A DNA stretch of 64,000 nt. Origin: Streptomyces sp. NRRL F-2580. Lineage in GTDB: Bacteria; Actinomycetota; Actinomycetes; Streptomycetales; Streptomycetaceae. Shown here in pieces: positions 30,601-50,888 of this stretch. Where the stretch lies: positions 310,001 to 374,000 of the forward strand of contig NZ_JOIR01000011.1 in assembly GCF_000720115.1 (NCBI RefSeq). Reading direction: 5' to 3'. Under the pieces are notes generated by a model. That model was not told the DNA's origin and searched no databases. It saw nothing but the letters and a program-made list of their open reading frames with translations. Within the stretch, counting starts at the first letter, position 1; every line of letters starts with the position of its first letter. A program made the translations under genes and the position numbers.

Positions 30601-30806
30601 GTAGCCACGGATGACACCTGGGACGACCGCGGCGGTCGAAAGTGGGGCGCTGACCGTGATCGACAACAGCGGACGGCGAAGTTTCGCGGTAGTCCGCGGT
30701 GCGCAGAACCCAATCAGTTTGGACGACGTCTTCGTTTCGTGTCTCTCGCAGGGGGGCCCGCCGATACTCTCCGGTTGTCGTTCGGCTGGGTGAGGGCGTG
30801 GTCATC

Positions 30807-33389: not shown

Positions 33390-33429
33390 TAGCCCCACCA
33401 CACCTTTGTGCGTTAATCCTGCACGTCCT

Positions 33430-33466: not shown

Positions 33467-34597
33467 GTGGGATCATCTTCATCTTCGCAGCTCGTCGACA
33501 GCGCCACGTCCGCCGGTTTTGACTACATCTTCCCAGCCATCCGGGGCGTTCAGGCGGGTCGAGAGTTCTACGTGTCCATGTGCCCCCTGCGGCTCATCCC
33601 GAAGATCTTCCTCTTCGACGAGGATGAGCTAGCGCCGGAGGTTCGAGCCCAGCGCGTCTTGAACAAGGGGCGGCTCCCAGCGCTCACTCGGTACATCGTC
33701 GACAACCCGGACGACTACACCTTCAGCGCGCTCACTGCATCCGTCGATGGCGAGATGTACTTCGAGAGCATCGCCGACACCGGCATGGGGATGCGTGCCG
33801 GCCAAATCCGTATCCCGATGGCTGCCCGCTTCTTGATCAACGATGGGCAACATCGGCGGGCGGCCATTGAGCAGGCCCTGAAGGAGAACCCCGACCTCGG
33901 CGAGGAGACGATCGCCGTCGTCTTCTTCCATGACGCTGGGCTGGAACGCTGTCAGCAGATGTTCGCCGACCTCAACCGGCATGCGGTGCGTCCGCCGCGT
34001 TCGATCGGCGTGCTGTACGACCACCGAGATGACCTGGCGATCATGGCTCGCCTCTTGGCAATGAAATCCCCTGTCTTCAAGGGGCATGTCGAGATGGAGA
34101 GCAGCACCCTTGCTCAACGCTCCCGCAAGCTGTTCACCCTGAGTGCCGTCTACTCCGCTACCCAGTCTCTCCTGCAAGGGCTGGAGACCAAGAAGGAGAA
34201 GGCTCAGGAGCTGGCGGAGGCATACTGGGAGGCTGTCGACCTTGTGGTCCCCGACTGGGGGATGGTGCGCAAGCGTGAGCTTGCAGCTCCCGAGGTCCGC
34301 AAGGACTACATCCACAGTCATGGCATCGCCTTGCACGCACTTGGCCGGATCGGGAACTCGCTCGTGCGGAATTCCGATTCGCCCCAAGTTTGGCATTCGA
34401 GGCTAAAGCTACTGACCTCGGTTGACTGGTCCCGGACCAACCCAGATTGGGAGGGTCGTGCGCTGATCGGTGGACGTGTGTCGAAGAGCCACCAGAACCT
34501 GACCCTGACTGTGAACTACCTGCGCCGTCACATGAAGCTCCAACTCAGCCCAGAGGAGCAGCGTGTAGAGGACGCATACCTGCGAGGAGATGCATGA
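33467..34597 (+). CDS. dndB: DndB, DGQHR-domain regulator of phosphorothioation
   Basis: 376 aa from the GTG at 33467. The family motif DGQHR is at residues 126-130 (LINDGQHRRAAIEQAL), followed by VVFFHDAGLERCQQMFADLN. DndB is not needed for sulfur insertion itself; it modulates modification and acts as a negative regulator of dnd expression in studied systems. The first gene of dndBCDE, it overlaps dndC by four bases (ATGA). A second, longer DGQHR protein is encoded 7 kb downstream. Confidence 0.93.
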   Translation: MGSSSSSQLVDSATSAGFDYIFPAIRGVQAGREFYVSMCPLRLIPKIFLFDEDELAPEVRAQRVLNKGRLPALTRYIVDNPDDYTFSALTASVDGEMYFESIADTGMGMRAGQIRIPMAARFLINDGQHRRAAIEQALKENPDLGEETIAVVFFHDAGLERCQQMFADLNRHAVRPPRSIGVLYDHRDDLAIMARLLAMKSPVFKGHVEMESSTLAQRSRKLFTLSAVYSATQSLLQGLETKKEKAQELAEAYWEAVDLVVPDWGMVRKRELAAPEVRKDYIHSHGIALHALGRIGNSLVRNSDSPQVWHSRLKLLTSVDWSRTNPDWEGRALIGGRVSKSHQNLTLTVNYLRRHMKLQLSPEEQRVEDAYLRGDA

Positions 34598-36087
34598 GCA
34601 CCCCGAAGCCGTCGGCCCCCTTCCAAGGGAGGGCCCTCGCCGAAGTAGTCACTGAGCTCACGGAAGAGATCCGTGAGCTCTACACGGCTGACGAGGTGCC
34701 CTGGGTCATCGGCTATAGCGGCGGCAAAGACTCCACCGCTGTACTCCAACTTGTCTGGCTTGCCCTCCAAGGGTTGCCGGATGAGCAGCGAACCAAGCCC
34801 GTGCATGTCATCAGCACCGACACGCTGGTTGAAAATCCAGTGGTGGCTGCCTGGGTCACCCAGTCCCTTGACACGATGGGGAAGGCGGCCAAGGAGCAAG
34901 GGCTGCCTATCGAGCCGCACCGCCTGATCCCCGAGGTGAAGGACACGTTCTGGGTCAACCTCATCGGCAAGGGCTATCCAGCCCCTCGTCCCAAGTTCCG
35001 GTGGTGCACGGAACGATTGAAGATCAAGCCGTCCAACGCGTTCATTCGCCGTGTCGTGCGCCGACACGGTGAGGCGATCCTCGTCCTCGGCATTCGAAAG
35101 ACCGAGAGCCAGGCGCGTGCCCGCGCCATGGCGAAGCACGAGAAGCGTCGCGTGCGAGACCGTCTCTCTCCCAACGGCAATCTGCCGAACTCCCTCGTCT
35201 ACAGCCCCATCGAAGCCTGGGGCACAGAAGAGGTCTGGATGTTCCTGATGCAGTACTCCAACGCGTGGGGGCATCGGAACAAGGACCTGCTGACCATGTA
35301 CCAGGGTGCCTCCGAGGACTCAGAGTGCCCCTTGGTGGTGGACGACACCACGCCTTCCTGTGGTGACAGTCGCTTCGGATGCTGGACTTGCACCCTTGTG
35401 GACAAGGACAAGTCGATGACTGCCATGATCCGCAACGATGACGAGAAGGAGTGGATGCGCCCCCTCCTGGAACTCCGCAATCTGCTCGATGACGTGTCGA
35501 CGGAGAAAGAGGACCGAGACTTCCGGCGGATGAACGGCAACGTTCAACTCTTCCATGATGGCGTGATCCACGGCCCGTACACGCAGGAAGCACGTCAGAA
35601 GTGGCTGACAAAGCTCCTGGAGGCACAGACCCTCGTGAGGCAGACCGCACCGGAGAGCGTCCGGGGCATCGAGCTGATCTCGGAGGCAGAGCTGCACGAG
35701 ATCCGCCGTATCTGGGTGTTCGACAAGCACGAAGTCGAAGACACGCTGCCGGCTATCTACGAGTCGGCGACGACCGAGAGGTTCCCCGGACGACCTCTTG
35801 ACGAGCAGCTGGTGCTCGGTGCCGAGGAGATCGACCTCCTCAAGGAAGTATGCGACGGCGATGACATCCACTTCACGATGACGCGTGAACTCCTCGCAGT
35901 CGAGCGGCAGCACCGGACCATGACGCGGCGTTCTGGCCTCTTCAAGGAGCTGGAAAAGACGATCAAGAAGGGATTCTACGAAAACGAAGACGACGCCCTT
36001 CAGTTCGCGAAGCGTAAGCAGGAGATCCGCGAATCTGCCCCGACCTACGTGACGCTGAACGAAGAGAACTCCGATGCTCCTTCATAA
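34594..36087 (+). CDS. dndC: DndC, PAPS reductase-like sulfur transfer enzyme
   Basis: 497 aa from the ATG at 34594. The PP-loop SGGKDS (residues 42-47) binds ATP to activate the DNA backbone phosphate. RWCTERLK and CGDSRFGCWTC supply cysteines for the 4Fe-4S cluster expected in DndC. The C-terminal part (IRRIWVFDKHEVEDTLPAIY ... FTMTRELLAVERQHRTMTRR) is typical. Works with DndD and DndE in the modification complex and receives sulfur from DndA. Overlaps dndD by 14 bases. Confidence 0.95.
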   Translation: MSTPKPSAPFQGRALAEVVTELTEEIRELYTADEVPWVIGYSGGKDSTAVLQLVWLALQGLPDEQRTKPVHVISTDTLVENPVVAAWVTQSLDTMGKAAKEQGLPIEPHRLIPEVKDTFWVNLIGKGYPAPRPKFRWCTERLKIKPSNAFIRRVVRRHGEAILVLGIRKTESQARARAMAKHEKRRVRDRLSPNGNLPNSLVYSPIEAWGTEEVWMFLMQYSNAWGHRNKDLLTMYQGASEDSECPLVVDDTTPSCGDSRFGCWTCTLVDKDKSMTAMIRNDDEKEWMRPLLELRNLLDDVSTEKEDRDFRRMNGNVQLFHDGVIHGPYTQEARQKWLTKLLEAQTLVRQTAPESVRGIELISEAELHEIRRIWVFDKHEVEDTLPAIYESATTERFPGRPLDEQLVLGAEEIDLLKEVCDGDDIHFTMTRELLAVERQHRTMTRRSGLFKELEKTIKKGFYENEDDALQFAKRKQEIRESAPTYVTLNEENSDAPS

Positions 36088-38056
36088 CATTTCACTTCAT
36101 GACTTTGGCGCCTATCGCGGTAAGCAGTCCCTTGACTTGAGCGTTAAGCCCGGGAGGCCGATTATCCTCATCGGCGGTCTGAACGGATGCGGCAAGACAA
36201 CCCTGTTGGATGCCATCCAGCTGGTGCTCTACGGCCGTCGGGCACGGTGTATCAACCGCCCCTACGAGTCCTACCTGCGCGAGAGCATCAACCGCAAGGC
36301 CAACTCGGCCGAGGGTGCGGAGATTGCCCTGGAGTTCTCAGTCGTTGTAGATGACCAAGAGCGGCACTACCGGGTTACCCGGAGCTGGCACACCAGCGGC
36401 AAGCAGCTCAAGGAATTCCTGAACGTGATCGTCGATGGCCAGTTTGACCGGATCCTCAGTGATGGCTGGGCCGACCACGTAGAGGACATCCTTCCGCTCG
36501 AAGTAGCCTCGCTCTTCTTCTTCGACGGCGAAAAGATCGAGTCGCTCGCAGACCCCGAGCGGGCAGCCAACGTCATCGAGTCCGCGGTCCACTCGCTCCT
36601 CGGCGTGAGCACGGTGGAGCAGCTCCGTACTGATCTTGTCGCGCTAGTACGACGACAGAGACTCTCCAACGAGGACCAGGCCGTCCTCGACCAGATCCGC
36701 GCCCAGGAAGCCGAGCACGAATCGGCAAGGCAGGAAATCGCGGACCGGACGCAGACCTTGAGCAGTGTCCGATCGAGATGTGACCGGCTGCAGGTAAAAC
36801 TCGACAAAGTGGAGAAGGAATTCGAGCGGGCCGGCGGAAAGCTCTTTGAACGTCAGAAGGAACTCGAGAGCAACCACAAGACCATTAGTGAGCTTCTGGC
36901 GGCCCAGCGTGCTTCCCTACGGTCTCTTGCTGCAGGGCCGTTGCCTCTTCTGATGCTCCCGCAGCAGTTGGCCAGGCTCCGCGAACAGGCCAGGCGGGAG
37001 AAGGACGCTGACGACGCCACACGAGTCGTCGGCGTCCTGGAGGATCGCGATGCGTGGCTTCTTGACCAGCTTTCTGCGTCGGTGCCAGCTGCCGCGCGTA
37101 CGGCTTTGAAGAAAAAGCTGGCAGCGGATCGCGAGCGGCGCGAGAGCGCAGCAGAACTCAAGCAGAGCCTCGACCTGCCGCTTGACGCGCTTGAGCAACT
37201 CTCGGCTCTAGATGAAGCGCTCTCTCGGGATGCCTCTCGAGCTCGCGAGCTCCTCAAGGAGTCCGCGGAGACCTCCGACCGTCTCGATGACGCCGATCGT
37301 CTCCTTGCTGGTGTGCCGGACAAGAAGCTGATCAAGGATCTTATTGAGAAGCGGAACGAGGCGATCGACGAGCTCGCCGTCGCGAATGATGAACTCAGGC
37401 GTGGCGAACAGCAGTTGGAGGAGGTCAAGAGTCGGCGGGACCGCATCGGCGCCGATCTGGAACGAGCGCAGCAGAAGCGAGTCAAGACGCTCATCGAGAT
37501 CGAGGAGCTCGAGCGAGTCGTCACGTTCGCAGGTAAGGCACGAGACACGCTGGAGAGGTTTGGCGAGGCTCTGCTGCGGCGCCACATCAGCCGGCTGGAA
37601 GTCGCTGTCCTTCAGAGTTTCAAGGCCTTGATGCGTAAGAGCGGCCTCATTCACGATCTGCGGATCGACACTGTCAAGTCCAATCTCATTCTTGCGGACT
37701 CCGAAGGTGAACCTATCGATCCCGGACGGCTCAGCGCGGGCGAACGGCAGCTGCTTGCCATCTCGCTGCTCTGGGGCCTGGCCAAGGTTGCCGGAAACAG
37801 GCTGCCAAGCGTGATCGACACGCCTCTGGGGCGCCTCGACAGTAGGCACCGCCAACACCTGGTCGACCGGTACTTTCCGAACGCCGGTCGGCAGGTGCTT
37901 CTGCTGTCCACGGATGAGGAGATCGACGAGAACCTCCTCAGCCGATTGAAGCCCTCCCTCGCACACACCTACACCCTTGTCCACGACGACACGTCGTTCA
38001 CCACAACCGTCGAGACTGGCTACTGGTGGACCGCAGGAGCCCCGCATGTCGCTTGA
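36074..38056 (+). CDS. dndD: DndD, SMC/RecF-like ATPase
   Basis: 660 aa. An N-terminal ABC half carries Walker A GGLNGCGKTT (residues 34-43); the long middle is coiled coil (residues 190-490, rich in Glu/Arg/Lys heptads such as LQVKLDKVEKEFERAGGKLF); the C-terminal half has signature LSAGERQ (about 553-559) and Walker B LPSVIDTPLGRLDS. I see no CxxC zinc hook at the tip. DndD hydrolyses ATP, probably to nick or open DNA for sulfur insertion. Overlaps dndC and dndE. Confidence 0.94.
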   Translation: MLLHNISLHDFGAYRGKQSLDLSVKPGRPIILIGGLNGCGKTTLLDAIQLVLYGRRARCINRPYESYLRESINRKANSAEGAEIALEFSVVVDDQERHYRVTRSWHTSGKQLKEFLNVIVDGQFDRILSDGWADHVEDILPLEVASLFFFDGEKIESLADPERAANVIESAVHSLLGVSTVEQLRTDLVALVRRQRLSNEDQAVLDQIRAQEAEHESARQEIADRTQTLSSVRSRCDRLQVKLDKVEKEFERAGGKLFERQKELESNHKTISELLAAQRASLRSLAAGPLPLLMLPQQLARLREQARREKDADDATRVVGVLEDRDAWLLDQLSASVPAAARTALKKKLAADRERRESAAELKQSLDLPLDALEQLSALDEALSRDASRARELLKESAETSDRLDDADRLLAGVPDKKLIKDLIEKRNEAIDELAVANDELRRGEQQLEEVKSRRDRIGADLERAQQKRVKTLIEIEELERVVTFAGKARDTLERFGEALLRRHISRLEVAVLQSFKALMRKSGLIHDLRIDTVKSNLILADSEGEPIDPGRLSAGERQLLAISLLWGLAKVAGNRLPSVIDTPLGRLDSRHRQHLVDRYFPNAGRQVLLLSTDEEIDENLLSRLKPSLAHTYTLVHDDTSFTTTVETGYWWTAGAPHVA

Positions 38057-38423
38057 GACAGTTCGCCTCTCGCAGACGGCGAAGGATCAACTCATCTGGT
38101 TGAAGCGCAACACCGGTCTGACCCAGTGGAATGAACTTTGCAGGTGGGCCCTGGCGCTGTCGCTCCGAGACTCATCCACGCCACTGGTGAAGGAGGTCGT
38201 GACCGACTCCAACGTCGAGATGTCGTGGAAGACCTTCACCAGCCCGTACGGAGACATCTACCTGGCTCTGCTCAAGCAGCGGTGCCTCATGGACGGCGAG
38301 GAGCTCTCGGACGAGGCCATCGCCCGGACGCTGACGGTGCACCTGCACCGCGGCATCGGCTACTTGCACGGCCGGCCCGACCTTCGGTCCGTCGAGCAGC
38401 TCGTCTCCACCGCCACGGGATAG
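38046..38423 (+). CDS. dndE: DndE, DNA-binding subunit of phosphorothioation complex
   Basis: 125 aa from the ATG at 38046, overlapping the dndD stop by 11 bases. It has the DndE pattern: VRLSQTAKDQLIWLKRNTGL, WNELCRWALALSL, FGSPYG-like FTSPYGDIYLALLKQR, then LTVHLHRGIGYLHG. DndE is a small helical protein that binds nicked DNA and works with DndC and DndD. Last gene of the dndBCDE operon, followed by a perfect hairpin. Confidence 0.93.
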   Translation: MSLETVRLSQTAKDQLIWLKRNTGLTQWNELCRWALALSLRDSSTPLVKEVVTDSNVEMSWKTFTSPYGDIYLALLKQRCLMDGEELSDEAIARTLTVHLHRGIGYLHGRPDLRSVEQLVSTATG

Positions 38424-38446
38424 CTCCCAGCGGATGGATGATGTCG

Positions 38447-38474
38447 GCCCGCCCCACCGATCGGTGGGGCGGGC
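38447..38474 (+). terminator. Perfect 14-bp hairpin after dndE
   Basis: GCCCGCCCCACCGA (38447-38460) is directly followed by its complement (38461-38474), a 28-base perfect palindrome ending GGGC then TTCTG. It lies 24 bases after the dndE stop and separates dndBCDE from the next same-strand cassette. The remaining bases up to 38,724 carry no supported gene. Confidence 0.75.
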
Positions 38475-38724
38475 TTCTGCATGCTGGCCTGGCGAATGCC
38501 GCCGCTGGATGCTGCTAGCGGATCTCCTCAGCAACGGCTGCAACAACAGGGGCAGTTGCCCGACCTCTGTAAGTGAGGCATAGTCAGGCGCCGTGCAGAT
38601 CACATCGATCCGCCAACGCCTGTCTGTGGCATCCAGTACCCTCGCAAGACAACTGAATGAGCACCGCTTCAACCCGGACGCGAGCCACCGTATGGGGTTC
38701 GCCACCAGACCTCCTGGAGCGATC

Positions 38725-39195
38725 ATGATCAGCCACCCCGTCGAGGGGGCTATTGTCGCGCTGCAACAGAGCGCGCGCGCCACTTTCGACACCTACCAGC
38801 TCGACAGGATCGATCGAGCCCTCGACGAGCTTCTGCGAAACCCTTCTGACGAGTCGACGCCGGCGGAGCACCGCGTCCGGTCAGCCATGGGGCACGCCTA
38901 TGAGGTACTCGAACGCCGCAAGACCATCGCCCCTCTCGTCCACCTCGGTGCAGAGCACACCGAGCAGGGTGAGAGCGACCGGGACTATCCGCTGGTTGAG
39001 ATCAACGAATGGCTGCGCTGTGAACCCGGAATCTCGCAGGAGCAGCGATCCCTGCTCCAGGCGCTCGCACGTGGTGAGGATGCAGCCAGTCTCGCGCATC
39101 GTGAGGGCCTACCCGTAGCCCGAGTGCGAGAACGCATCAGCCGCGCCCGGAGGGCAGCCCGCGAGAGCTGGAAGGCATCGGTGCCGGCTGCATGA
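38725..39195 (+). CDS. Sigma-region-4-like helix-turn-helix protein, first gene of the dnd-adjacent cassette
   Basis: 156 aa from the ATG at 38725 (GGAG upstream); the frame is open from 38593 but the earlier part has no ribosome site. The N-terminal 80 residues are helical (AIVALQQSARATFDTYQLDR, RVRSAMGHAYEVLERRKTIA). The C-terminal 60 (ISQEQRSLLQALARGEDAAS then LAHREGLPVARVRERISRAR) match the HTH of sigma region 4, but region 2 is missing, so it is unlikely to be a full sigma factor. It probably binds DNA and controls the cassette, or guides the nuclease. Overlaps the GIY-YIG gene by four bases. Confidence 0.65.
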   Translation: MISHPVEGAIVALQQSARATFDTYQLDRIDRALDELLRNPSDESTPAEHRVRSAMGHAYEVLERRKTIAPLVHLGAEHTEQGESDRDYPLVEINEWLRCEPGISQEQRSLLQALARGEDAASLAHREGLPVARVRERISRARRAARESWKASVPAA

Positions 39196-39596
39196 ATCCG
39201 AGACTCCTCCGACTTCGCCCGTGGCTCGTACGAGCACTCATCCCACCGCAGTACATCGGAACTTACGTGCTCTACACGTCGACAGGCGTCCCGAGTTACG
39301 TCGGCCGCAGCGACACAGACCTCCGGCGACGGCTTCTCCGACACTGCACGAACCGGCGAGGCGCGTACTTCACGTACGACGTCCACAACAGTCCGCTGAA
39401 CGCCTACGAGGTCGAGTGCGCACTGTTCCACACGCTCACGCCCGGGGTCACTAACCGCATACACCCGGACCATCCCGCCTACCAAAAGGCCATCTGCGTG
39501 TACTGCCGGGCCGTACAACGCACTGTGCGGAGACTTCGCCTCGCACCCCAGGCCTTCAAGATCGATCCCGCTACCAGTTCGAGTGAGGACCACTGA
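39192..39596 (+). CDS. GIY-YIG superfamily nuclease, 134 aa
   Basis: The fold motifs are visible: GTYVLY (residues 23-28) for GIY, YVGRS (36-40) for YIG, the Arg helix DLRRRLLRH (43-51) and the metal-binding Glu in AYEVECALFH (71-80). Length and motifs fit a single-domain GIY-YIG endonuclease with a short N-terminal helix and a C-terminal basic part (CRAVQRTVRRLRLAP) likely to bind DNA. It overlaps the sigma-like gene by four bases and the GHKL gene by one (TGATG), so all three are made together. A DNA-cutting role next to dnd is the obvious inference. Confidence 0.75.
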   Translation: MNPRLLRLRPWLVRALIPPQYIGTYVLYTSTGVPSYVGRSDTDLRRRLLRHCTNRRGAYFTYDVHNSPLNAYEVECALFHTLTPGVTNRIHPDHPAYQKAICVYCRAVQRTVRRLRLAPQAFKIDPATSSSEDH

Positions 39597-41338
39597 TGAC
39601 GACAGCCCCTCTGTTCCAGGCCCCCGGCGACCAGCGCGCCAGCATCATCCAGATCGACCGCGCCCTGGAATCAATGCGTGACGCCGGCTTCGACCTGACG
39701 GCCGCCATTGGCGAGCCTCTGGACAACTCCATCCAGGCCGAGGCCACCTTGATGCGAGTCCTCCCGGTGTACGGAGCTCGCAAGAAGACCATCGAGAAGT
39801 TCATCATCTCGGACAACGGCGTCGGCATCGACCCTGCGATCATGCACAACGTGCTGTCCATGGGCTACAGCGCACGCTACAACGAGCGCGACGGCCTGGG
39901 CCGTTATGGGATGGGACTGAAGCTCGCCGGACTGAGCATTGGCGAGCGCATCGACATCTACAGCAAGCGCGCCAACAGCCCGAAGATCCACCACAGTTAC
40001 GTCGACCTTGAAGAAGTCAGGGACGGCAAGCAGGAGTACATCAGCACCGACGAGGTCCAGGAGTGGCCTGAGGAAGCCGCAAAGCAGATGGTGGGCAGGG
40101 ACGGCCGCCCACTCGCCTCTGGAACCGTAGTGATCTTCAGCAAGATTGACCGGCTGTCTACCGGCGGCACCTACGGTACGTCCCTGGATGAGAAGATCGC
40201 CGATCTCCGCAAGTTCATCGCGCGCGCATTTCGGACCTACATCGACACGGGCCGCACCATCGAACTTGAAGGCAAGCCGGTCACACTTCACGACCCCCTC
40301 TTCCTGAGGGACAACCCTCGCATCATCGCACGGTACAAGTCGCAGAAGCTCGACCCCCGCGGCGTTCTCGTCGAGGAAGGCGACATCGAGATCGACGGCC
40401 ACAAGGTCCACGTAAAGGTCGGTCTAGTACCCGTTGAATTCCGCCCCTACGCCATGGCAGGTGGACATGTGGACCACCAAGGCCATGACATCACGGAGTT
40501 CCAAATCAACCCGGAGAATGCCGCAAAGATCAGCATCCTGCGTAACGGCCGAGAGATCTTTTACGACGGCATCCCTCGTCTCCTGGAGGCGACACGGACA
40601 GATAAGGCCATCCGGTACGTGGCCATCGAGGTCTCCTTCCCTGCGGAGTTGGACGAGTACTTCCAGGTGCGCAACGTCAAGCGCGGAGCTGAGCCCGTGA
40701 CGAAGCTCCGGAATCAACTGAAGGAGTGGCTGAAACGACCCATGCGGCAAGCTCGCAGCCAGATCCGCGAATACTGGACCGAAGTCGATACGCGAAAGCG
40801 TCTTGAGAGCGGTCCGCATGACGGAAGCATGGCTACCGCAGAGCGGGCTAACCGCAACCTTCCGCAGGGTATTGCGGGACGGACTGTGACTCCGGAGCAG
40901 GAGGAACAAATCGTTCTGGACGCGGCAGAAGATATGGGGCTTGACCCAGTAGTCGATGCTGTAAAGGTCGATGCACTACGCGAACAGATCCTGACCAAGC
41001 CCATTACTCTCTTCGATGCGAGCTGGCCTGGTAAAGAGTTCATCGTGGTTCAGCACCTCAACGGCAAGGCCGTCGTGAAGTTCAATCTTCGACACACGTT
41101 CTTCCGTGAGGTCTACGTGCCGTTGAAAAAGCTCGCTGACCAAGGCACGGACGGCCTCACGCCAGAGGACATGCTCGACCTCGCCCGTCGTGCCGAGGCA
41201 GCGATCGATCTCCTGTTCATGGGCTACGCACGCGCGGAATCCATGTCCCCGAACGCAGAAGAGGACTACAGCCAACTGCGCACGCATTGGGGCATGTTCA
41301 CCGAGGCCATGCTGAAGGAAGAGCTCAAGGACGAGTGA
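39596..41338 (+). CDS. GHKL (MORC/MutL/Hsp90-like) ATPase, 580 aa
   Basis: The Bergerat ATP fold is clear: N box EPLDNSIQA (Glu40 catalytic, Asn44 Mg2+ ligand), G1 box SDNGVGID (72-79), and G2 box GLGRYGMGLKLAG (100-112). A transducer-like region follows to about residue 380 (ITEFQINPENAAKISILRNG then REIFYDGIP), and the C-terminal 200 residues are helical (EQEEQIVLDAAEDMGL ... FREVYVPLKKLADQG). Such ATPases dimerise on ATP and clamp DNA; prokaryotic MORC/MutL-like versions have been described in restriction-modification contexts (Iyer, Abhiman and Aravind). Here it follows a GIY-YIG nuclease with one-base overlap. Confidence 0.85.
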   Translation: MTTAPLFQAPGDQRASIIQIDRALESMRDAGFDLTAAIGEPLDNSIQAEATLMRVLPVYGARKKTIEKFIISDNGVGIDPAIMHNVLSMGYSARYNERDGLGRYGMGLKLAGLSIGERIDIYSKRANSPKIHHSYVDLEEVRDGKQEYISTDEVQEWPEEAAKQMVGRDGRPLASGTVVIFSKIDRLSTGGTYGTSLDEKIADLRKFIARAFRTYIDTGRTIELEGKPVTLHDPLFLRDNPRIIARYKSQKLDPRGVLVEEGDIEIDGHKVHVKVGLVPVEFRPYAMAGGHVDHQGHDITEFQINPENAAKISILRNGREIFYDGIPRLLEATRTDKAIRYVAIEVSFPAELDEYFQVRNVKRGAEPVTKLRNQLKEWLKRPMRQARSQIREYWTEVDTRKRLESGPHDGSMATAERANRNLPQGIAGRTVTPEQEEQIVLDAAEDMGLDPVVDAVKVDALREQILTKPITLFDASWPGKEFIVVQHLNGKAVVKFNLRHTFFREVYVPLKKLADQGTDGLTPEDMLDLARRAEAAIDLLFMGYARAESMSPNAEEDYSQLRTHWGMFTEAMLKEELKDE

Positions 41339-41559
41339 CTGTGTGCCCGGCCCGGCTCGCCCCTGCCGGCGCCGGCATCACGCTCCAGCCAGGCTTGGCT
41401 GATTCCTGCAGCCGGAACCCCTTGTTTCAGGCATCGGGCTCCGCGGATGCGTTGTGACCTGCAGGATGCCGTAAGGGGCGAACTCAAAAGTCACCAGCGA
41501 TGCGGTCGTCCAACGGCCGTCGACACCAGGTACAGATCACAGTGGGAAGGCAGTGAAGG

Positions 41560-43734
41560 ATGTTCGGCTCGGGCGGCAGGCTCACGTTCCGCGACTATGC
41601 GCAAGGCACCTGGGGGAGCTTCGATACCCCCGCGGGACGGGTCGACTACATCATGACCAAGGCCCGCCTTGGCGGGGATGCCGACACGCCTGAACGTCAG
41701 CTGACGAAAAGTCTGGCCCCAGTACGTGAGGTTATGGACGCTGGCGACCTGGACTTCAACCAGCTCTTGCAGCGCGATCTCGATGACCACCGAGTGGCGG
41801 TCAAACTGATCCCCTATCTACTCAAACCCCAAGCAACTGGTCCGGCATTCTTTCCCCCCATCGTCGCAGTACTCCTGCCGTTTCGGAACAAGCAGCCGAC
41901 GTTCTTCCCCGTACTCGGAGAGGGCACAGCGGTCGCCGCGGACGAAGCCGAGTGGGAACAGCAGCAGGCCGGAAACGCGTTCCAGACGCAGCGCCTGCTC
42001 GGCGCCGACGGCAAGCCCCACGGAGCGAACGTCGGCAAGCTGTGGTGGAACAACACCGAAGCGCGCCTGGTCGTGCTGGACGGCCAGCACCGAGCCATGG
42101 CCCTGCTCGCCATCGAGCGGACGCTGACCAAGTCATGGCAGGAGTCGTCCGCCGTCAAATTCCGTTCGTTCTATGAGCACCAGGTTCTTCGTGCGCTCGA
42201 GGAGTACGGTGCCGGCGAGCCTGACCTGTCGAAGGTCGAGGTCCCTGTGACCGTGTGCTGGTTCCCCGACCAGACTGGTGAAGGCGCTCGCCCCCACGAA
42301 GCCGCGCGGAAGTTGTTTGTCGACGTCAACAAGGAAGCTCGTCCGCCGAGCGAGTCTCGCATCATCCTCCTTTCGGACGCCGAGCTGTCCAACGTCCTCA
42401 CACGAAGCATGCTCAGCGAGCTGCGCAGTCGCAGCGAGGACTCCTACCTCCCTCTGTACGCGGTGGAGTACGACAACCCCGAGGTCAACAGCTATCGGCC
42501 GGCCCGCTGGTCGGTGCTCACCAACATCAACTTGCTGAAGATGGCCGTCAACCGGTGCGTATTCGGCCCGCAGAAGTACCTCACCAACGTCGCGCAGCAA
42601 ATCTCCGGCAGGGAAGGTGATGAGGCGCGTGACAAGTTCATGCGCGCCCAGCTCGACCTTCCCTCGCTCCTGCCGAAGTACTTCGAAGATGGTGGCCGGA
42701 CCTTCGACCGAGACACCGTCGGTGACAAGCAATTCCCGCTCGGGAAGTTGGACGCGCTGAGTGACAGGTTCAGGGAGACCTGGGGCAAGGCAATCTTGAC
42801 GCTCTTGTCCAGCACGGCCCCCTACGCTGCACACGCCTCGGCCTTGACCAACCTCAAGAACGACTGGCTCACCGCGGACACCTTCGCGGCCCTCGCTCAT
42901 GATGCGCTGTTTGGCGGGGTGGGCGTCTTTTGGACCCTCCGCGACAGCTACGAGCACTACAAGGACCACCGGGACATTGGTAGCAGCCGGCAGCCCAAGT
43001 CGGATGTCATTCGCGCCTGGGAGGCCCTCAAGGGCAAGGAAGGCGACTTCGACGAGTACCGGGCATTGGAATACTTGGGGTCGAGGCGGCCTGAACGGGT
43101 CAAACGGTGCAGGGAAGCGTATTCCGTGCTGAATACCCACGCCTGCCAGCTTGGCCTCGTCATGACCTTGGGGTCGCTCTGGGAGTTGCGCAAGGTACAG
43201 CCGGGGGATGTGGACCTCAATGATCTGCCGGCCTTCGCCGAGGCCCTCGTCGGTGGATGGAATTCCTTCTTCCAGATCGAGAGCGGAAAGGCGCGCGACC
43301 GGAAACTTGCCTTCAACAAGGTGGGCATCTCATATCCGATCAACCAGATCGTGAACATGGAATCCCCGCAGGCTATCTATTTCCGATACTTCTGGATGCA
43401 GGCGCTCGCGGTGCCTGATGCCTGGTCTCACGTGGCTACTTGGTTGCCAGACCGGGATGCCTTCGACCACACGCTAGACCAGGCACGACGAACGTACCTG
43501 GAGCTGTGCATCAAGCAGCAGTTCAAGGCTCTGAAGACGAACCGCCCGACCGCGGACGATAAGGACCTTAAGCATGATGCGGAGAAGCAGGCGACCGGGG
43601 CGCTCCGGAGCGCGCTGAAGAACTGGTTCCAAGTAGATGAGGAAGACTTCGCAGAGTGGCTTAGCCGCCCCGTCCCGCGGCAGCGCAAGACTGGCGAGCC
43701 GGTACTCGACGATGCTTTGACTGAAGCAGAGTAG
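41560..43734 (+). CDS. Large DGQHR-domain protein (DndB paralogue), 724 aa
   Basis: ATG at 41560 with GGAAGG eight bases upstream. The DGQHR motif is at residues 174-178 in RLVVLDGQHRAMALLAIERT, and RKLFVDVNKEARPPSESRII (about 250) matches the segment after the motif in DndB. The protein is almost twice as long as DndB, with a helical C-terminal half (WKTLRDSYEHYK-like, KNWFQVDEEDFAEWLSRP). It lies 221 bases after the GHKL gene on the same strand. DGQHR proteins are known as DndB regulators and in nuclease contexts; here it could recognise phosphorothioate marks or regulate the cassette. The 221-base gap has no gene I can support. Confidence 0.8.
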   Translation: MFGSGGRLTFRDYAQGTWGSFDTPAGRVDYIMTKARLGGDADTPERQLTKSLAPVREVMDAGDLDFNQLLQRDLDDHRVAVKLIPYLLKPQATGPAFFPPIVAVLLPFRNKQPTFFPVLGEGTAVAADEAEWEQQQAGNAFQTQRLLGADGKPHGANVGKLWWNNTEARLVVLDGQHRAMALLAIERTLTKSWQESSAVKFRSFYEHQVLRALEEYGAGEPDLSKVEVPVTVCWFPDQTGEGARPHEAARKLFVDVNKEARPPSESRIILLSDAELSNVLTRSMLSELRSRSEDSYLPLYAVEYDNPEVNSYRPARWSVLTNINLLKMAVNRCVFGPQKYLTNVAQQISGREGDEARDKFMRAQLDLPSLLPKYFEDGGRTFDRDTVGDKQFPLGKLDALSDRFRETWGKAILTLLSSTAPYAAHASALTNLKNDWLTADTFAALAHDALFGGVGVFWTLRDSYEHYKDHRDIGSSRQPKSDVIRAWEALKGKEGDFDEYRALEYLGSRRPERVKRCREAYSVLNTHACQLGLVMTLGSLWELRKVQPGDVDLNDLPAFAEALVGGWNSFFQIESGKARDRKLAFNKVGISYPINQIVNMESPQAIYFRYFWMQALAVPDAWSHVATWLPDRDAFDHTLDQARRTYLELCIKQQFKALKTNRPTADDKDLKHDAEKQATGALRSALKNWFQVDEEDFAEWLSRPVPRQRKTGEPVLDDALTEAE

Positions 43735-44086
43735 ACCGCGGACCAAGCGCCCGATGGTCGGCCGCTGCTTTGGCACACCAGGTGTCTCCAGCTACGTGCT
43801 GGGGGCACCTCCTCACGGAGTCCCGTGCCGCCACGAGAGGATCGGCAACGCCCCTGCGGCGCAGCCTGAAATTGCAAGGATTTCAGCGGGCAACGTGCCG
43901 CTTCTTCAGTTCTGATGGCACCGTGCGGTTTCTCGCACAGGTCGAGCCCGGGGTCGGTTCCCGCGACGTGGTGTATGGGATCAAGCGCCTTGGCGCGGGA
44001 CGCCATCGACCTCGGGACTTGGCTGCGGCCGTTGGGCAAGCACCTGAACCAAGCGGGCACCCGAAGGTGAACCCCCGGCGATACGG
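43735..44086. other. Intergenic region after the DGQHR gene
   Basis: About 350 bases between the convergent DGQHR and OGG-fold genes. ORFs here have no coherent protein character and I see no strong hairpin. Probably non-coding or remnant DNA. Confidence 0.4.
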
Positions 44087-44884: not shown

Positions 44885-45109
44885 GGCTAACGTCGCCCCC
44901 GTCTCCTCATGTGACGCGTCATCGTGGCATGTAGCGGTGGCTGAGGCGCCCCGCCGACCCTCGCACTGCTGGCTTTGCCCGCTTCCCACTCCTGCGGTCA
45001 CCACGACACCGCATACCATGGGACAGCTCGGCGCCGGCCTGCTATACCTCCGCCAGGTGTGCGTTCTGCTCTGCCTTGCGCAGTGATCTGCCGAGCCGGG
45101 AGCGAGGAC

Positions 45110-46265: not shown

Positions 46266-46790
46266 CTACGGCTTTGAAGCGACTACTTCCGCGAGCTTTC
46301 GCTTGGCGATTGCTTCGTCGAGTTCCTGCTTGAAGATCCGCAGGAACGTCTCCAGAGACCGTGGCCTATCGTCGAACCACTCGTCACGAAGCACTTCAAA
46401 CCCTCCGTGCGCGTACTTGTTGAACTCCTTGACTCCCTCTTCGCTGAGGTGGTGTCCGGAGGAATTGGGCTCTAGGAGCTTCTTGATCTTCGCGTGAACG
46501 TCCTTCTTCTCGCTCATTTTGATTCCAAGGTCCTCCAGCTCCTGAGTCAGGAATAGGGCAACGAGGACTTGCTTCCGCGGTGCGTATCTTTCTGGGAAGT
46601 ACGAAATGAGCTCAGGCGCCGCGCTGTTGGGTGTTGATACCTTCTTTCCGGTGGCGATCCCTGCCATGAAGCAGAAGTAGAAGGCGTCAAAACCGATGCG
46701 AAAATCCTTCTCGTATAGCGCCTTAAACCATTCCTTGGCGTCGTCGCGAAGTCGGAATGGCTGTGGCGCCCGTGTCGGTTCACTCGTCAT
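46266..46790 (-). CDS. Hypothetical protein, 174 aa, partner of SMC-like ATPase
   Basis: A helical, charged protein: DDAKEWFKALYEKDFRIGFD, then AFYFCFMAGIATGKKVS and QVLVALFLTQELEDLGIKMS. The pattern (short helical start, FDAFYFCFMAGIATGKK) recalls small proteins found with dnd-type and SMC-like ATPase defence genes, but I cannot assign it. Starts two bases after the end of the ATPase gene, so it is the last gene of the four-gene operon. Base composition is lower in GC than the surrounding genes. Confidence 0.65.
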   Translation of the reverse strand: MTSEPTRAPQPFRLRDDAKEWFKALYEKDFRIGFDAFYFCFMAGIATGKKVSTPNSAAPELISYFPERYAPRKQVLVALFLTQELEDLGIKMSEKKDVHAKIKKLLEPNSSGHHLSEEGVKEFNKYAHGGFEVLRDEWFDDRPRSLETFLRIFKQELDEAIAKRKLAEVVASKP

Positions 46791-46792
46791 AG

Positions 46793-48775
46793 CTACACCT
46801 CCTCGCTTTCCATCTGGAAGTCATCGAAGAAGGCCTCATCCGCGATCACGAATCCATCGGAGCTTTCCATGGTGCCATCAAGCTTTCGCGCCTCGTCTTC
46901 GTATCTTTTGGTTCTGGGGCCTTTGCGGAAGATGGTCAGGAACTGAATCTCGTCGCTGCTTGACTTCTTCAGGGAGGATACGAAGCCGGGACGCTCGGTG
47001 GAGATGATGAAGGTGATGAACTGACTCGTGAGCGTGGGAATGAGCTCGCCGATTCGCCGGCGTACATCCAAATCGATCGCGCCGGCAGGGCTGTCCACCA
47101 CAAAAGGAAGCTGATGCTCGGATCGATCAAAAAGGGTTGCAAGGAATGCATAGGCTACGGATAGCGTCTCGCCCATGCTGCCTGCTTCTTGATCCTTAAG
47201 CTTAAGGCATCTGTCGATTTCGGCAATGGTGATGTCGTTGTTGGGCAGAAGTTCGTGGATACGTTGATTTGCATCATCCCGCACTTCTGTGAGGATGCCT
47301 TTCCGTGCCTTGCTGTATGCACCCTCGATGATGCCGTGGAGGATGTCACGCTTCTCTCGCAGGTCGCGGGTTTCTGTAATCTCTGCAAGGCGCAGCTCTG
47401 CCTCGCTGATGCGCCCCTCGATGACCTTGATCCCGAAGGTTCGCTCGTCCTTCTCGTCCTCAGACTTGTTCTTGAATTTCTCTAGCTCTTGATCGATTAC
47501 TGATATCCGTGCGCGAAGACGCTCGATCTGTTCTTTTGCTTCTTTTACGGCTGGGTCCGCTTGCTCGACCTCTAGCCGCAGTTGATCGAGTTCATTCTGG
47601 GCATCGCGTTCCTTGCCGACGGAGACTTCGAGCGCTGCGATACTTTCGAGGAGCTCCTCCTCTGGGGTGGTGCGAGACTCTCCGACAGCTTCATGAATCG
47701 ATGACTTCATCGAGTTGAGTAGTGAAACATCGTCCGATCCGAGGTATTGGTGTGCACGTTGCTGAATTACGCTACGTACCTCGTCATCTATAGGCCGTCC
47801 ACAAATGCACTCAGGTTCAGCCGCCAGCTCTTCGAAGAATTCTCGGGCCGCGCTTTCAGGTAGCTTTACGCGATCGAGGCCGGTCTTGAGGTCGTAGAGC
47901 TTCTGAGCGAAGAATGGTGACAATGCGTGCGGGTTGCGCATGGCCTCCAGCAGGTCTGTGGCTTCCTCGCGGGCCTTTTGGGAAAGATGAGTGCAGCGTG
48001 ATTCCAGCCTGGCTACTTGCTGACCGTGCGCTTCACCCTTCTTTGTCGCCCGGTCGTAGAGGTCCACACGATCGGAAAGTTCCGCAGCGAGCTTGTCGCG
48101 TTCATCCTTGAGCTGCTTCCGCTGTGATACAAGGAAGGTTCTGCGATCGCGGAGTCTGCCGAGCCTGTTACGGCGCTGGCTGAATCCTTTTTCCTCAGTC
48201 GCCGTCACTTTGCTGGTGCGGCGATCCCAGTATTCGGATACCTTCCTTTTGATGGCAGGGAGTGAGTTGATTTGAAAAAGATTTTCGACAACTGTCTCAG
48301 CTCGGACTTGCTGTGGGTTGAGTAGGTCCTTAGCGAGCTCCCCATCAAACACAAAGAATTTTACAAATGTTTCGGTAAGGAACCTTTGGAAATCGCGAGG
48401 GGGGTGAAAGCCGTCGACCTGGCCTTTTCCGTGTGTAGTCTTGTAGGAGGCCCTTCCGTTTTCAAAATCCAGGTTCAAGATGATAGTGACAAGCTGCTCG
48501 TTAAGTTGCAGCCTCACTTCGAAAGAGCCATGACTGGGTCGACCCTCCCGCTTCTGGAGTCCTCTGACCATGTCCCGGTCCCAGCTGCCGTCGGTCGCTG
48601 AGCCAGACAAGGTTGCCCGCAGCAAGTCGATTGTCGTGGTTTTGCCAGTGCCGTTGGGCATCTGGACTAGAGAGGTACTGTGGAGCCCCCCGGCTTGGCT
48701 TCGGAAGTCCACATGGTGATCGGGGCACCGGAGCCCGGTGGCCGTCCAACCGAGAATCTGCATGACTGCCGGCAT
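46793..48775 (-). CDS. SMC/RecN-like ATPase with CxC hook (DndD-like)
   Basis: 660 aa from the ATG at 48775, which overlaps the small ORF stop by one base. Walker A MPNGTGKTT is at residues 39-47; a coiled-coil arm runs to a tip with CICG near residue 322, a CxC metal hook in place of the CxxC of Rad50; the second coiled coil (ELDQLRLEVEQADPAVKEAK ... LRARISVIDQELEKFKNKSE) leads to the C-terminal half with AGSMGETLSVAYAFLATLFD and Walker B LPFVVDSPAGAIDLD. It probably senses or holds DNA and drives the helicase/PLD partner. I recall a family name for the adjacent small protein that mentions a CxC ATPase. Confidence 0.82.
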   Translation of the reverse strand: MPAVMQILGWTATGLRCPDHHVDFRSQAGGLHSTSLVQMPNGTGKTTTIDLLRATLSGSATDGSWDRDMVRGLQKREGRPSHGSFEVRLQLNEQLVTIILNLDFENGRASYKTTHGKGQVDGFHPPRDFQRFLTETFVKFFVFDGELAKDLLNPQQVRAETVVENLFQINSLPAIKRKVSEYWDRRTSKVTATEEKGFSQRRNRLGRLRDRRTFLVSQRKQLKDERDKLAAELSDRVDLYDRATKKGEAHGQQVARLESRCTHLSQKAREEATDLLEAMRNPHALSPFFAQKLYDLKTGLDRVKLPESAAREFFEELAAEPECICGRPIDDEVRSVIQQRAHQYLGSDDVSLLNSMKSSIHEAVGESRTTPEEELLESIAALEVSVGKERDAQNELDQLRLEVEQADPAVKEAKEQIERLRARISVIDQELEKFKNKSEDEKDERTFGIKVIEGRISEAELRLAEITETRDLREKRDILHGIIEGAYSKARKGILTEVRDDANQRIHELLPNNDITIAEIDRCLKLKDQEAGSMGETLSVAYAFLATLFDRSEHQLPFVVDSPAGAIDLDVRRRIGELIPTLTSQFITFIISTERPGFVSSLKKSSSDEIQFLTIFRKGPRTKRYEDEARKLDGTMESSDGFVIADEAFFDDFQMESEEV

Positions 48776-48987
48776 CAGAAAAGCTCCTCGGCGTCGCGGC
48801 GGCTGGTGGTCGTGCTCTCGTATAGAACATCGAGTCTGCGCTCGGCTGCATCGGAGTCGTTGACGTCTTCGTTGCCCGATGTGACAGCGGTCATCCAGGC
48901 GACAAGCCGCTGTGCCAGCTTCGGATCTTGTCCAGCCTCGGCTACGGCATCTCGGATGCCTTCGGTTACCTTCGAATCTAGGCTCAT
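48775..48987 (-). CDS. Small protein of the CxC-ATPase system, 70 aa
   Basis: MSLDSKVTEGIRDAVAEAGQ is followed by a helical stretch (KLAQRLVAWMTAVTSG) and an acidic tail ending RRDAEELF. It overlaps the helicase gene by four bases (ATGA) and the ATPase gene by one, so it is a true member of the operon despite its size. From memory, NCBI has a family named for a small protein associated with CxC ATPase DNA modification systems; the position here fits that exactly. Function unknown, perhaps an adaptor between helicase and ATPase. Confidence 0.7.
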   Translation of the reverse strand: MSLDSKVTEGIRDAVAEAGQDPKLAQRLVAWMTAVTSGNEDVNDSDAAERRLDVLYESTTTSRRDAEELF

Positions 48988-50888
48988 TTACCATTCTCCT
49001 GATGACGGATGCCCGACAGATCCGTCAGCCACGTTTGTCTTTCCATGTCAGAGTTCGGCGTGTCGTTTTCCGAGGCGCGTACGAAGTCAACGATGTTTGC
49101 GACCTTTTTAAGGTTCGCAGGATCGGTTCGCAGCGACCTTCCGATTCGCTGGATGGTTTCCAGGTGGGCGCGTGCTGATGAAAACAGCACTACGGTGTTG
49201 AGGGAGCGGATGTCGATACCCTCGGACAAGCGATGGCAGGTGACCAAACACTGAAGATCACCCTGCGCGAACCGGTCTAGGGTGCTCGACTGTTCGTTAG
49301 TGAAGTAGCTGTGAAAGTCTGGCCTGTATTTATGAATGAGGTCGAGGACTTGTTGCCCGTACTCTTGTGTCTCCGTGAAGACGACGCATCTCTCCAGGAG
49401 TTCAGGGTGTACTGCTATGAAGTTATCGAACTCAGGAAGTTTGGCCTGGGAAGTTTTGTATACATTGGCCAGTTCAATTGCAACATCTTTTTCGCTCATC
49501 GGATCGCCTGCCGCTGCCCGCGCAGCCTTCTTGGCGTGAACATCCCGCAGGCGCTTTCGGTCATGCTGTGTGAGTTCGTAAGGCAACGGGAAGTAATTGA
49601 AGGGAGCAAGGATCCCGCGCTGAATTGCCTTGTCTAGGCCGAACTCCATGAGTACGGGGCCTACGTGTTCCTCAATGAAGGCGTTGCCAGCGTCATCGTA
49701 TTCCCGGTCTGGCGTGGCGCTCAATCCCAGCCGGTACCTGATTGGATCGGACAATCCGGCGAGGCGTTGCGTTGTGCCGGCACTGCCTAGCCCATGAACC
49801 TCGTCATGTACCAGCAGGGTTCGTTGGGCACGCTGTGAGGAGAGCTTGCGAAGAGCCGCTGCCAGCGGATCGCGCGTCGGTCCTTTGTCGCGAGAGACCA
49901 GCAGGATGCGGTCCTTCGTTTCGAGGGAGTAAGCCTGTAGATCCTTATGTGATCCGAAGTCTCTATACAGTCGGACCTGGCGGGGAAGGTCCCGCTGGGC
50001 TTGCAGGAGTTCTGTATGCCACTGTTTGAGTAGGTCGGTTCCTTGCATGGCTATGATGACGTTGTCGATCCGGCCCATTGCGAACAGCGCCTTCATGATC
50101 TTCAAGGCCGTTCGAGTCTTGCCCGTCCCCGTCGCCATATTGAGGACGCCGCGCTCCGCTGTGAGGAAGGCTTTGAGCGCCTCATCCTGGTGGCGCCACT
50201 TATTGCTTCGTGGCTGCTGCGTGCGCGTGTTAGCTCGGTAGGTCTGCAGGAGCCGCTGCTTGGCTGCCTCGGGGAACGAGTACACCTCGACGCCGATGTC
50301 GGTGCCGGTCCATACCTGGTCGAAATGTTGCCGCTTGCGTGCTGCCCGCACAGGTGACTCCCATGCTGGGTAGACGTCTATGCACTCGCGGTTGTTCTCG
50401 AACGCGTTCCGTGACTCGTTCGATGACCCGCTGAACGCAACATACTCGCCGTCCGTGTCCTCGAAGACCCCGATCTTTTCGTGGTAGATGCCGGACCCGT
50501 GCTTTGGAACCGCGATCCGAATCTCCAGTCGTTCCAATTCAAGTAGGCGGCTGAGCCGTGCGACGCCGTCGCCGACACCGTCTGCGAACTCTTCAGAGAC
50601 GATCTGCTCCAGTCGCTCGGCGCAGATCGTTTCCTTGGACGTACCGTTGGCTATCGCGTTGAGATCGGCTTCAGTGAGCTCGACACTCGTGACCAGGCGG
50701 ATCTTGCCGTCATTGAGGACGAACTCACCTAGAGGGGACCCGAAGGACTCCAGAGCAGTGCTCGAGAAGTAGCCGACTGCCCGCCAGTAGGTGCTCGCCT
50801 CGCGCAGGGCCGGGCGAAAGAACTCCTCGACGAGGTTGTTGTATCCGGATCTGTAGTCTTCCTGATACCGGAGGTTCCTCAAAGCCAC
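48984..50888 (-). CDS. SF2 helicase with N-terminal phospholipase D-like nuclease domain
   Basis: 634 aa from the GTG at 50888. The N-terminal PLD domain shows HEK (136-138) in YHEKIGVFED and SGSSNES (153-159), the HxK...S..N half-site of bacterial PLD nucleases. The SF2 motor follows: Walker A MATGTGKTRTA (251-261), DEVH in LLVHDEVHGLG, LGLSATPDREYD, and motif VI IQRIGRSLRTD. Such proteins unwind and cut DNA in restriction and defence systems. First gene of the operon; expression signals upstream are not obvious. Base composition is lower in GC than the dnd genes, suggesting separate acquisition. Confidence 0.88.
   Translation of the reverse strand: MALRNLRYQEDYRSGYNNLVEEFFRPALREASTYWRAVGYFSSTALESFGSPLGEFVLNDGKIRLVTSVELTEADLNAIANGTSKETICAERLEQIVSEEFADGVGDGVARLSRLLELERLEIRIAVPKHGSGIYHEKIGVFEDTDGEYVAFSGSSNESRNAFENNRECIDVYPAWESPVRAARKRQHFDQVWTGTDIGVEVYSFPEAAKQRLLQTYRANTRTQQPRSNKWRHQDEALKAFLTAERGVLNMATGTGKTRTALKIMKALFAMGRIDNVIIAMQGTDLLKQWHTELLQAQRDLPRQVRLYRDFGSHKDLQAYSLETKDRILLVSRDKGPTRDPLAAALRKLSSQRAQRTLLVHDEVHGLGSAGTTQRLAGLSDPIRYRLGLSATPDREYDDAGNAFIEEHVGPVLMEFGLDKAIQRGILAPFNYFPLPYELTQHDRKRLRDVHAKKAARAAAGDPMSEKDVAIELANVYKTSQAKLPEFDNFIAVHPELLERCVVFTETQEYGQQVLDLIHKYRPDFHSYFTNEQSSTLDRFAQGDLQCLVTCHRLSEGIDIRSLNTVVLFSSARAHLETIQRIGRSLRTDPANLKKVANIVDFVRASENDTPNSDMERQTWLTDLSGIRHQENGK

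Follow-up and report, generated by a model that had tools for sequence, protein, structure and literature searches.

Gene content of the module and its relatives

The 64,000-nt stretch of Streptomyces sp. NRRL F-2580 analysed here (contig NZ_JOIR01000011.1, positions 310,001 to 374,000; 66% G+C; hereafter the window) carries a four-gene module directly behind a DNA phosphorothioation (dnd) cluster. The module encodes a helix-turn-helix (HTH) protein, a GIY-YIG nuclease, a GHKL ATPase and a 724-aa protein with a DGQHR motif, and is preceded by a conserved leader. All four genes lie behind dndE on the same strand, as the original prediction, made from the sequence alone, had placed them. Loci are labelled L and genomes G followed by a number, G000 being the strain's own genome. 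The features of the module are as follows.

38636..38729, plus strand: conserved leader with an inner hairpin at 38680-38702 (covariation; model R1, 88.4 bits)
38725..39195, plus strand: HTH (sigma-4-like) protein, 156 aa (profile match adjoining the ATPase in 35/35 loci)
39192..39596, plus strand: GIY-YIG (URI) nuclease, 134 aa (Pfam, 22.2 bits; catalytic residues in 26/26 rows)
39596..41338, plus strand: GHKL ATPase, MORC/paraMORC-like, 580 aa (HATPase_c_3, 67.4 bits; motifs; structure model)
41560..43734, plus strand: 724-aa protein whose first half contains a DndB/ParB-like DGQHR part (TIGR03187, 35.1 bits, cut-off 58.85)

The predicted overlap of gene ends was found for the first three genes (4 bases between the HTH and GIY-YIG genes, 1 base between the GIY-YIG and GHKL genes), whereas the DGQHR gene lies 221 bp apart. 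Relatives of the module were located through the ATPase. An alignment of the window protein and 34 relatives, picked by identity spread from the best 120 of 396 matches, was used alone and blind to dnd in one scan of genome contigs, which gave 110 stretches, 38 of them with a relative, representing 35 distinct loci.

In the ATPase, the N, G1 and G2 motifs of the GHKL domain are intact and an S5 domain comes after it, an architecture of MORC/paraMORC proteins. Residues E40, N44, D73, G75, G77, G102, R103, G105, G107 and K109 were invariant in all 35 alignment rows including the window. Its structure model (predicted local distance difference test score, pLDDT, 77) showed the GHKL+S5 fold and matched SMCHD1, MORC3 and Topo VI-B, with SMCHD1 and MORC3 best by Z; the MORC-like character first proposed for this protein was thus supported, its fold being nearest by Z to MORC-type ATPases. 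The Pfam score of the GIY-YIG protein was 0.4 bits under the cut-off of 22.6, and the nearest solved GIY-YIG structure by sequence was UvrC, a weak match (E 0.83). Nevertheless, G23-x-Y25, Y36-x-G38, R47, H51, E75 and N88 were kept in 26/26 rows (window and 25 loci), and the GIY and YIG motifs with the catalytic Arg, Glu and Asn were also present in 20/20 rows of a second check. In the DGQHR protein, D174-G-Q-H-R178 was invariant in 16/16 rows (window and 15 loci); its structure model (pLDDT 57) was too poor for a fold search, and the DGQHR alignment found no sequence match among solved structures. The HTH label comes from a weak sigma-70 match (18.2 bits vs 124.55). The HTH open frame begins with GTG at 38593, and distant relatives align from residue 42-45, i.e., from the ATG at 38725 (codon 45), the start given in the original prediction; that close relatives already align from residue 29 reflects conservation of the leader DNA as well.

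With a profile built from the window and 11 loci, leaving 24 loci outside the profile, the HTH gene was found beside the ATPase in 35/35 loci (weakest in L071, E 5e-6). The GIY-YIG gene occurred in 25/35 loci and was missing from L050, L056, L057, L064, L071, L073, L074, L075, L077 and L078, although on the L077 contig another ATPase copy is accompanied by a GIY-YIG gene (L033/L034). In L079, the HTH and GIY-YIG genes are placed after the ATPase rather than before it. The DGQHR gene followed the ATPase in 16/35 loci. On the best reading, the HTH protein together with the GHKL ATPase forms the core of the module, and GIY-YIG, and in one clade DGQHR, have been added to it. The cassette that had been proposed as a set therefore stands as regards its constant HTH partner, whereas the nuclease and the DGQHR protein are not obligate.

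Linkage of the module to dnd

The Dnd modification part of the window is complete, with dndA, B, C, D and E in one cluster and all above their NCBIfam cut-offs. Next to it lies a putative methyltransferase gene that the original prediction does not mention.

30699..32243, plus strand: DNA phosphorothioation-associated putative methyltransferase (TIGR04096, 532 bits, cut-off 150)
32247..33401, minus strand: dndA, cysteine desulfurase (TIGR03235, 545.6 bits, cut-off 480)
33467..34597, plus strand: dndB (TIGR03233, 533.8 bits, cut-off 328)
34594..36087, plus strand: dndC (TIGR03183, 698 bits, cut-off 290.4)
36074..38056, plus strand: dndD (TIGR03185, 702 bits, cut-off 245.85)
37977..38423, plus strand: dndE open frame, the true start of which may be internal (TIGR03184, 128 bits, cut-off 71.85)

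With the window proteins as queries, dndC was detected in the 10-kb flanks of 23 of the 35 ATPase loci. The remaining 12 genomes were searched, and dndC was above the curated cut-off in 12/12, giving 35/35 in total. It lay 10-22 kb off on the same contig in five loci (L049, L056, L070, L071 and L078), and in the case of L064 a second, more distant ATPase copy lies 20 kb from dndC. Gene order and orientation relative to dnd differed among loci, and the putative methyltransferase associated with phosphorothioate (PT) was near the module in many of them. The steady linkage of the GHKL ATPase to dnd that had been expected from the window alone was thus recovered in several gene orders and with different dnd types, and the contrary pattern, homologues mostly without dnd genes, was not seen among these 35 loci.

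Of 343 sampled genomes of the genus, 17 had dndC above the cut-off, and seven matched the ATPase alignment at E ≤ 1e-30. Four (G000, G097, G299 and G362) matched at E ≤ 1e-100, a line for a close ATPase that was drawn after the list was seen; dndC was on the same contig in 4/4, and the chance of finding it in all four is 4e-6. None of the other three genomes with an ATPase match (112-115 bits) had a dndC match. GHKL relatives of lower similarity are frequent, 45/199 relatives matching the single ATPase protein at E ≤ 0.001, mostly far more weakly. These results show that the linkage of the module to dnd is not due to chance.

Among the protein matches, S. lividans TK24 had an ATPase match (P0014, 71%) and a DGQHR match (P0178, 73%), the latter named 'LOW QUALITY PROTEIN ... 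partial'. Among the best 20 of 52 plasmid records, the Nocardiopsis plasmid CP054934 was the only one with an ATPase of > 30% identity, and genes for an HNH endonuclease and a tryptophan 7-halogenase lie near its copy of the module. Phage records gave two weak, partial ATPase matches.

Re-assortment between module and dnd type

The histories of the ATPase and DndC were compared in 24 rows, namely the window and the 23 loci with dndC in the flank, by means of quick trees in which L068, L072 and L077 were long. In the ATPase tree, the 15 rows with a DGQHR gene (window and 14 loci) formed one side of a branch (support 99, starred). In the DndC tree of the same rows, the DGQHR group required four changes, at least three of them by starred branches, and the group as one clade was rejected on the DndC data (approximately unbiased test, p 2.2e-5). 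Loci L048 and L066 carry an ATPase of the window kind on a different dnd type, and L061 and L074 show the reverse. The disagreement between the two trees indicates that the module switched dnd type yet remained linked to dnd. Linkage that is kept after re-assortment is a prediction of coupling selected for function, and not of passive hitch-hiking.

A conserved leader precedes the HTH gene

The non-coding stretch 5' of the HTH gene is strongly conserved. Its inner hairpin, at 38680-38702 in the window, is formed in relatives by GCGAGCC/GGCTCGC around CC-GCAT-GG, and a weaker outer helix would span the start region of the HTH gene. In an alignment of 26 sequences fitted to the structure, eight model pairs were paired in all cells, with two-sided changes at four pairs; the outermost pair of the outer helix was unpaired in 9/26 sequences. 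In an alignment of 17 sequences that was not fitted, the nine stem pairs were paired in 93.5% of cells, with double changes at four pairs. The unpaired cells fell in one middle pair (columns 57/73; 10/17 sequences), which was left out of the model. Five covariation measures on the 17 sequences were matched by 0, 1, 0, 53 and 0 of 500 shuffles. The window leader folded as a single sequence was no more stable than shuffles (z -0.47), so the case for an RNA structure is one of covariation alone, and the element may instead be a DNA operator. A coding role was rejected because of 1-base indels between loci, which show that the stretch does not code for protein in all of them; likewise, a short frame from the loop ATG was rejected, as in our reading its frame and end differ between loci.

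The window and 16 of the 35 loci supplied the sequences for the leader model R1. The leader precedes the HTH gene in 25/35 loci, nine of which are outside the model (L049, L056, L059, L060, L061, L062, L064, L070 and L074), and the element is also present on the Nocardiopsis plasmid copy. R1 occurs once in the strain's own genome at E ≤ 1; under stricter filters (E ≤ 0.05), it was found in 3/343 genomes of the genus (G000, G097 and G362), those with a close module. A window match at 52570-52652 (15.1 bits, E 0.68) was taken as chance, and in Rfam no family exceeded its gathering score for the leader. A second, partial copy of the hairpin (L062:19148-19189, 27 bits) stands before a 144-aa open frame other than the HTH gene, so the leader element may not be confined to the module. 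Another conserved stretch lies upstream of the leader at about 38560-38580 (CCGACCTNTATAAGTGAGG in relatives) and is perhaps a promoter. A promoter and terminator scan of 38380-44100 gave no sigma-70-like promoter, and terminators were at chance level.

Relatives of the ATPase linked to Ssp

Five genomes of the genus (L036, L038, L039, L040 and L041) encode more distant ATPases beside an SspA-like desulfurase and open frames of SspBCD-like lengths. In L041 (3415-16973), the one locus in which the families were checked, a second GHKL gene comes after those for SspA, B, C and D, and a divergent operon encodes a superfamily 2 (SF2) helicase, a GHKL protein and a protein with weak HKD/PLD (phospholipase D) matches. 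A tree of 31 GHKL proteins grouped the 13 dnd-linked ATPases together (support 99, starred) next to the five ssp-linked ones (88, not starred), and the second GHKL of L040 and L041 was placed elsewhere. The sspABCD genes with the helicase-GHKL-HKD operon, and in L040 and L041 the second GHKL gene, are possibly an undescribed Ssp effector; L106 shows the arrangement by annotation.

Six plasmid matches to the ATPase were examined by annotation. A Pannonibacter plasmid carries genes for a cysteine desulfurase (opposite strand), a DUF4007 protein, an ATP-binding protein, a phosphoadenosine phosphosulfate (PAPS) reductase family protein, a DEAD/DEAH helicase, the GHKL match and a phospholipase D family protein. 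On Photobacterium and Vibrio plasmids (L104 and L105), the more distant GHKL match (about 25% identity) has a PAPS-reductase-family gene (about 550 aa) as its neighbour, which may point to another sulfur-linked set. For two further matches, the stretch shown contains no gene annotated as dnd or ssp, and the sixth is the Nocardiopsis copy.

Comparison with known systems

The original prediction had not recognised the set as DndFGH, SspE, SspFGH or PbeABCD, and membership of each was rejected in turn. The four module proteins contain no HKD-SF2 helicase, ATP-binding cassette (ABC) ATPase or DndE-like domain, unlike PbeABCD, a CxC ABC ATPase system that is likewise a PT-linked cassette. TIGR03237 (dnd_assoc_2), which we take to be DndH, had no match in the strain's own genome, in a search in which no control genome matched either and which by itself does not prove absence, although the same model did match 2 of the 35 module genomes; membership of DndFGH was rejected on this count. 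SspE and DndI fuse a DUF262-type NTPase to an HNH (DUF1524) nuclease, and neither Pfam domain was detected up to E 1 in the four proteins. The nearest named defence ATPase was MzaB of the MZA system, with 67.9 bits in NCBIfam (cut-off 850) and 44.2 bits in PADLOC; an MzaB-like protein fell in another branch of the GHKL tree, and MZA membership was rejected. Lastly, the four proteins contain neither the SspF Walker A nor the SspH FtsK-like family that the available part of PMC8092258 describes for SspFGH.

Parallels are also found in the MORC and paraMORC ATPases of restriction-modification (R-M) operons, for which a clamp or looping mechanism of the kind suggested here has been proposed. According to the part of PMC2292703 available, these occur with DNA methylases, SF2 helicases and restriction-endonuclease-fold nucleases, and like the present module they combine a GHKL+S5 MORC-type ATPase with a separate nuclease in a mobile operon with DNA modification. 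That text, as far as available, contains none of the terms 'dnd', 'phosphorothio', 'uri' or 'giy-yig', whereas the module here has an HTH partner, a GIY-YIG nuclease, a connection to phosphorothioation and no helicase of its own. As for such a neighbourhood here, the PT-associated putative methyltransferase and the PbeA helicase lie in the island but outside the module. URI nucleases that stand alone at the borders of dnd loci have been proposed as back-up or suicide effectors (PMC10853773, in part); they too lie near dnd, but the main text of that paper mentions no GHKL, MutL or MORC, and its sections examined describe neither an HTH-GIY-GHKL module nor the leader. PbeA-D are explained in that paper. 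SspE and DndI pair a DGQxR NTPase with an HNH nuclease in one protein (PMC11662687, in part), whereas here the DGQHR protein, with no recognised nuclease, stands beside separate GIY-YIG and GHKL proteins. Literature searches yielded no text joining phosphorothioate with GHKL and GIY-YIG, or phosphorothioation with GHKL, supplements and most subscription papers being out of reach. Within the reach of these text searches, the results suggest that the module is undescribed, in line with its not having been recognised at first sight.

Proposed working and alternative explanations

In our view, the module is more likely than not a restriction effector that builds on Dnd phosphorothioation and in which a MORC/MutL-type clamp is paired with a separate nuclease. 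MORC and MutL close as ATP-dependent dimers on DNA, and the GHKL+S5 ATPase would do likewise, its dimer bringing in the small GIY-YIG nuclease in trans. The HTH protein would bind DNA and/or the module's own leader, and the leader would keep expression of a dangerous nuclease operon low. Host PT, sensed directly or via the DGQHR protein, would keep either the clamp or the nuclease away from self DNA, with the result that unmodified phage or plasmid DNA would be cut. The idea of DGQHR as an NTPase sensor arises from its DGQxR-type motif, which DndI uses for ATP hydrolysis (PMC11662687, in part). The sequence data establish the gene content, the conserved active sites, the fold class of the ATPase, its distribution with dnd, the exchange between dnd types and the covariation of the leader; that a complex forms, that DNA is cut, in which direction PT acts and what the leader does are inferred. 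In favour of the proposal are dndC in all 35 module genomes compared with 17 of 343 in the genus, the re-assortment with dnd, the ssp-linked neighbouring ATPase clade, and the finding that 18/35 module genomes show neither DndH nor PbeA at the thresholds used.

Several observations weigh against this interpretation. The GIY-YIG gene is missing from 10 of the 35 loci, so this enzyme is either not the sole nuclease or not essential. In 6/35 genomes (L059, L067, L069, L073, L075 and L079), dndC lies on another contig. The Nocardiopsis plasmid, searched by itself, carries the leader, HTH, GIY-YIG and ATPase (CP054934.1; L102:7043-9731) with no dndC on that plasmid, and is not among the 39 plasmids with dndC at E ≤ 1e-60. 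Conversely, 13 of the 17 dnd genomes in the genus sample are without a close ATPase, and dnd thus does not require the module. R1 was weak in L063 (E 0.22) and was not found at E ≤ 5 in 9/35 loci (L068, L069, L071, L072, L073, L075, L076, L078 and L079). The module is also often not the sole effector present, since PbeA (PDLC02703 at E ≤ 1e-20) occurs in 15/35 module genomes as well as in the window; DndH was detected in 2/35 (> 1200 bits). The DndH family matched none of the 17 dnd genomes of the genus sample, so its lack is no mark of module genomes. Finally, S. lividans, with an ATPase and a truncated DGQHR copy, tolerates loss of its whole dnd locus.

This last observation would be expected under an alternative in which activity needs PT, i.e., an effector that PT-marked DNA (as with SspE) or damage to the Dnd machinery switches on and that cuts the invader or, as suicide, any DNA. 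The SspE nuclease needs PT whereas DndI is repelled by it (PMC11662687, in part), and the DGQHR motif is DndI-like; the suicide role proposed for stand-alone URI nucleases at dnd edges (PMC10853773, in part) would also suit such an effector. However, according to the available part of a 2009 study of S. lividans (PMC2653506), in-frame deletions of dndA, C, D or E on the chromosome 'failed for unknown reasons', dndB being the exception, which rather fits attack on unmarked DNA. The same source reports dndA and dndD insertion mutants along with the whole-locus deletion, so the failed deletions cut both ways and serve only as a lead. On balance, we regard a PT-triggered effector as unlikely.

Less probable still is a housekeeping role, in which a MutL/UvrC-like HTH-GHKL-nuclease unit would remove PT sites, repair breaks there or regulate dnd. 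MutL has the GHKL fold and UvrC the GIY-YIG fold, though the UvrC match was weak as noted above, and the HTH gene and its conserved leader have a regulatory appearance. The patchy distribution of the close ATPase among sampled dnd carriers, with no overlap with the 39 dndC plasmids, is by contrast defence-like, and helicases and nucleases accompany the related ATPases in R-M operons (PMC2292703, in part). That the module is a mere passenger, a mobile cassette sharing islands with dnd but no joint work, is very improbable, because, although module and dnd both seem mobile and one plasmid has the module without dndC, dndC in 35/35 genomes and a linkage kept through dnd-type exchange are hard to obtain from island sharing alone.

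Extending the restriction-effector interpretation to the Ssp-linked relatives, we tentatively put forward a broader possibility, about which we are less confident. Both kinds of PT system may have recruited one branch of MORC-like ATPases for an undescribed effector class, with HTH, ATPase and GIY-YIG (DGQHR optional) on Dnd and helicase, ATPase and HKD on Ssp. The ATPase might read or relay the mark, the nuclease might be interchangeable, and the Dnd version might be under a new structured leader RNA. If the proposal is true, DNA modification would here be read in a new manner, by a MORC/MutL-type clamp acting together with a mark on the backbone. Such a clamp-type reader would sit near the bacterial origin proposed for eukaryotic MORC proteins (PMC2292703, in part). 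The leader, for its part, is a specific marker for locating more copies of the module.

Other effectors and neighbouring genes in the island

A PbeA/PbeC-like set on the opposite strand (46266-50888), absent from the original prediction, begins 2.5 kb past the DGQHR gene.

46266..46790, minus strand: small protein with a weak dnd_assoc_4 match, perhaps PbeB-like (TIGR04062, 23.9 bits, cut-off 74.25)
46793..48994, minus strand: PbeC-like ABC ATPase (PADLOC PbeC models, up to 62 bits)
48984..50888, minus strand: PbeA, HKD/PLD and SF2 helicase (PADLOC PDLC02703, 884 bits)

The same island therefore holds other effectors, and the module is not its sole restriction candidate. PbeA was found in 10/13 module-less dnd genomes of the genus vs 15/35 module genomes (Fisher p 0.052), a comparison between different taxa that was not used as evidence. 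Loci lacking GIY-YIG were not clearly richer in PbeA (6/10 vs 9/25, p 0.27). PbeA of the same subtype (> 700 bits) was present in the genomes of L065, L073 and L078, directly beside the ATPase in L073. Two further proteins are encoded between the restriction sets of the window: an OGG-like DNA glycosylase (Pfam PF21790; 44087-45217, minus strand) and, at 44975-46039 on the plus strand, an Mrr-type protein. Further along, a protein with Mrr_cat and nSTAND3 domains (53027-55384, minus strand) matched the PADLOC candidate PDC-S73 (395 bits), and both L052 and L054 carry a relative of it (56-57%) downstream of their DGQHR gene.

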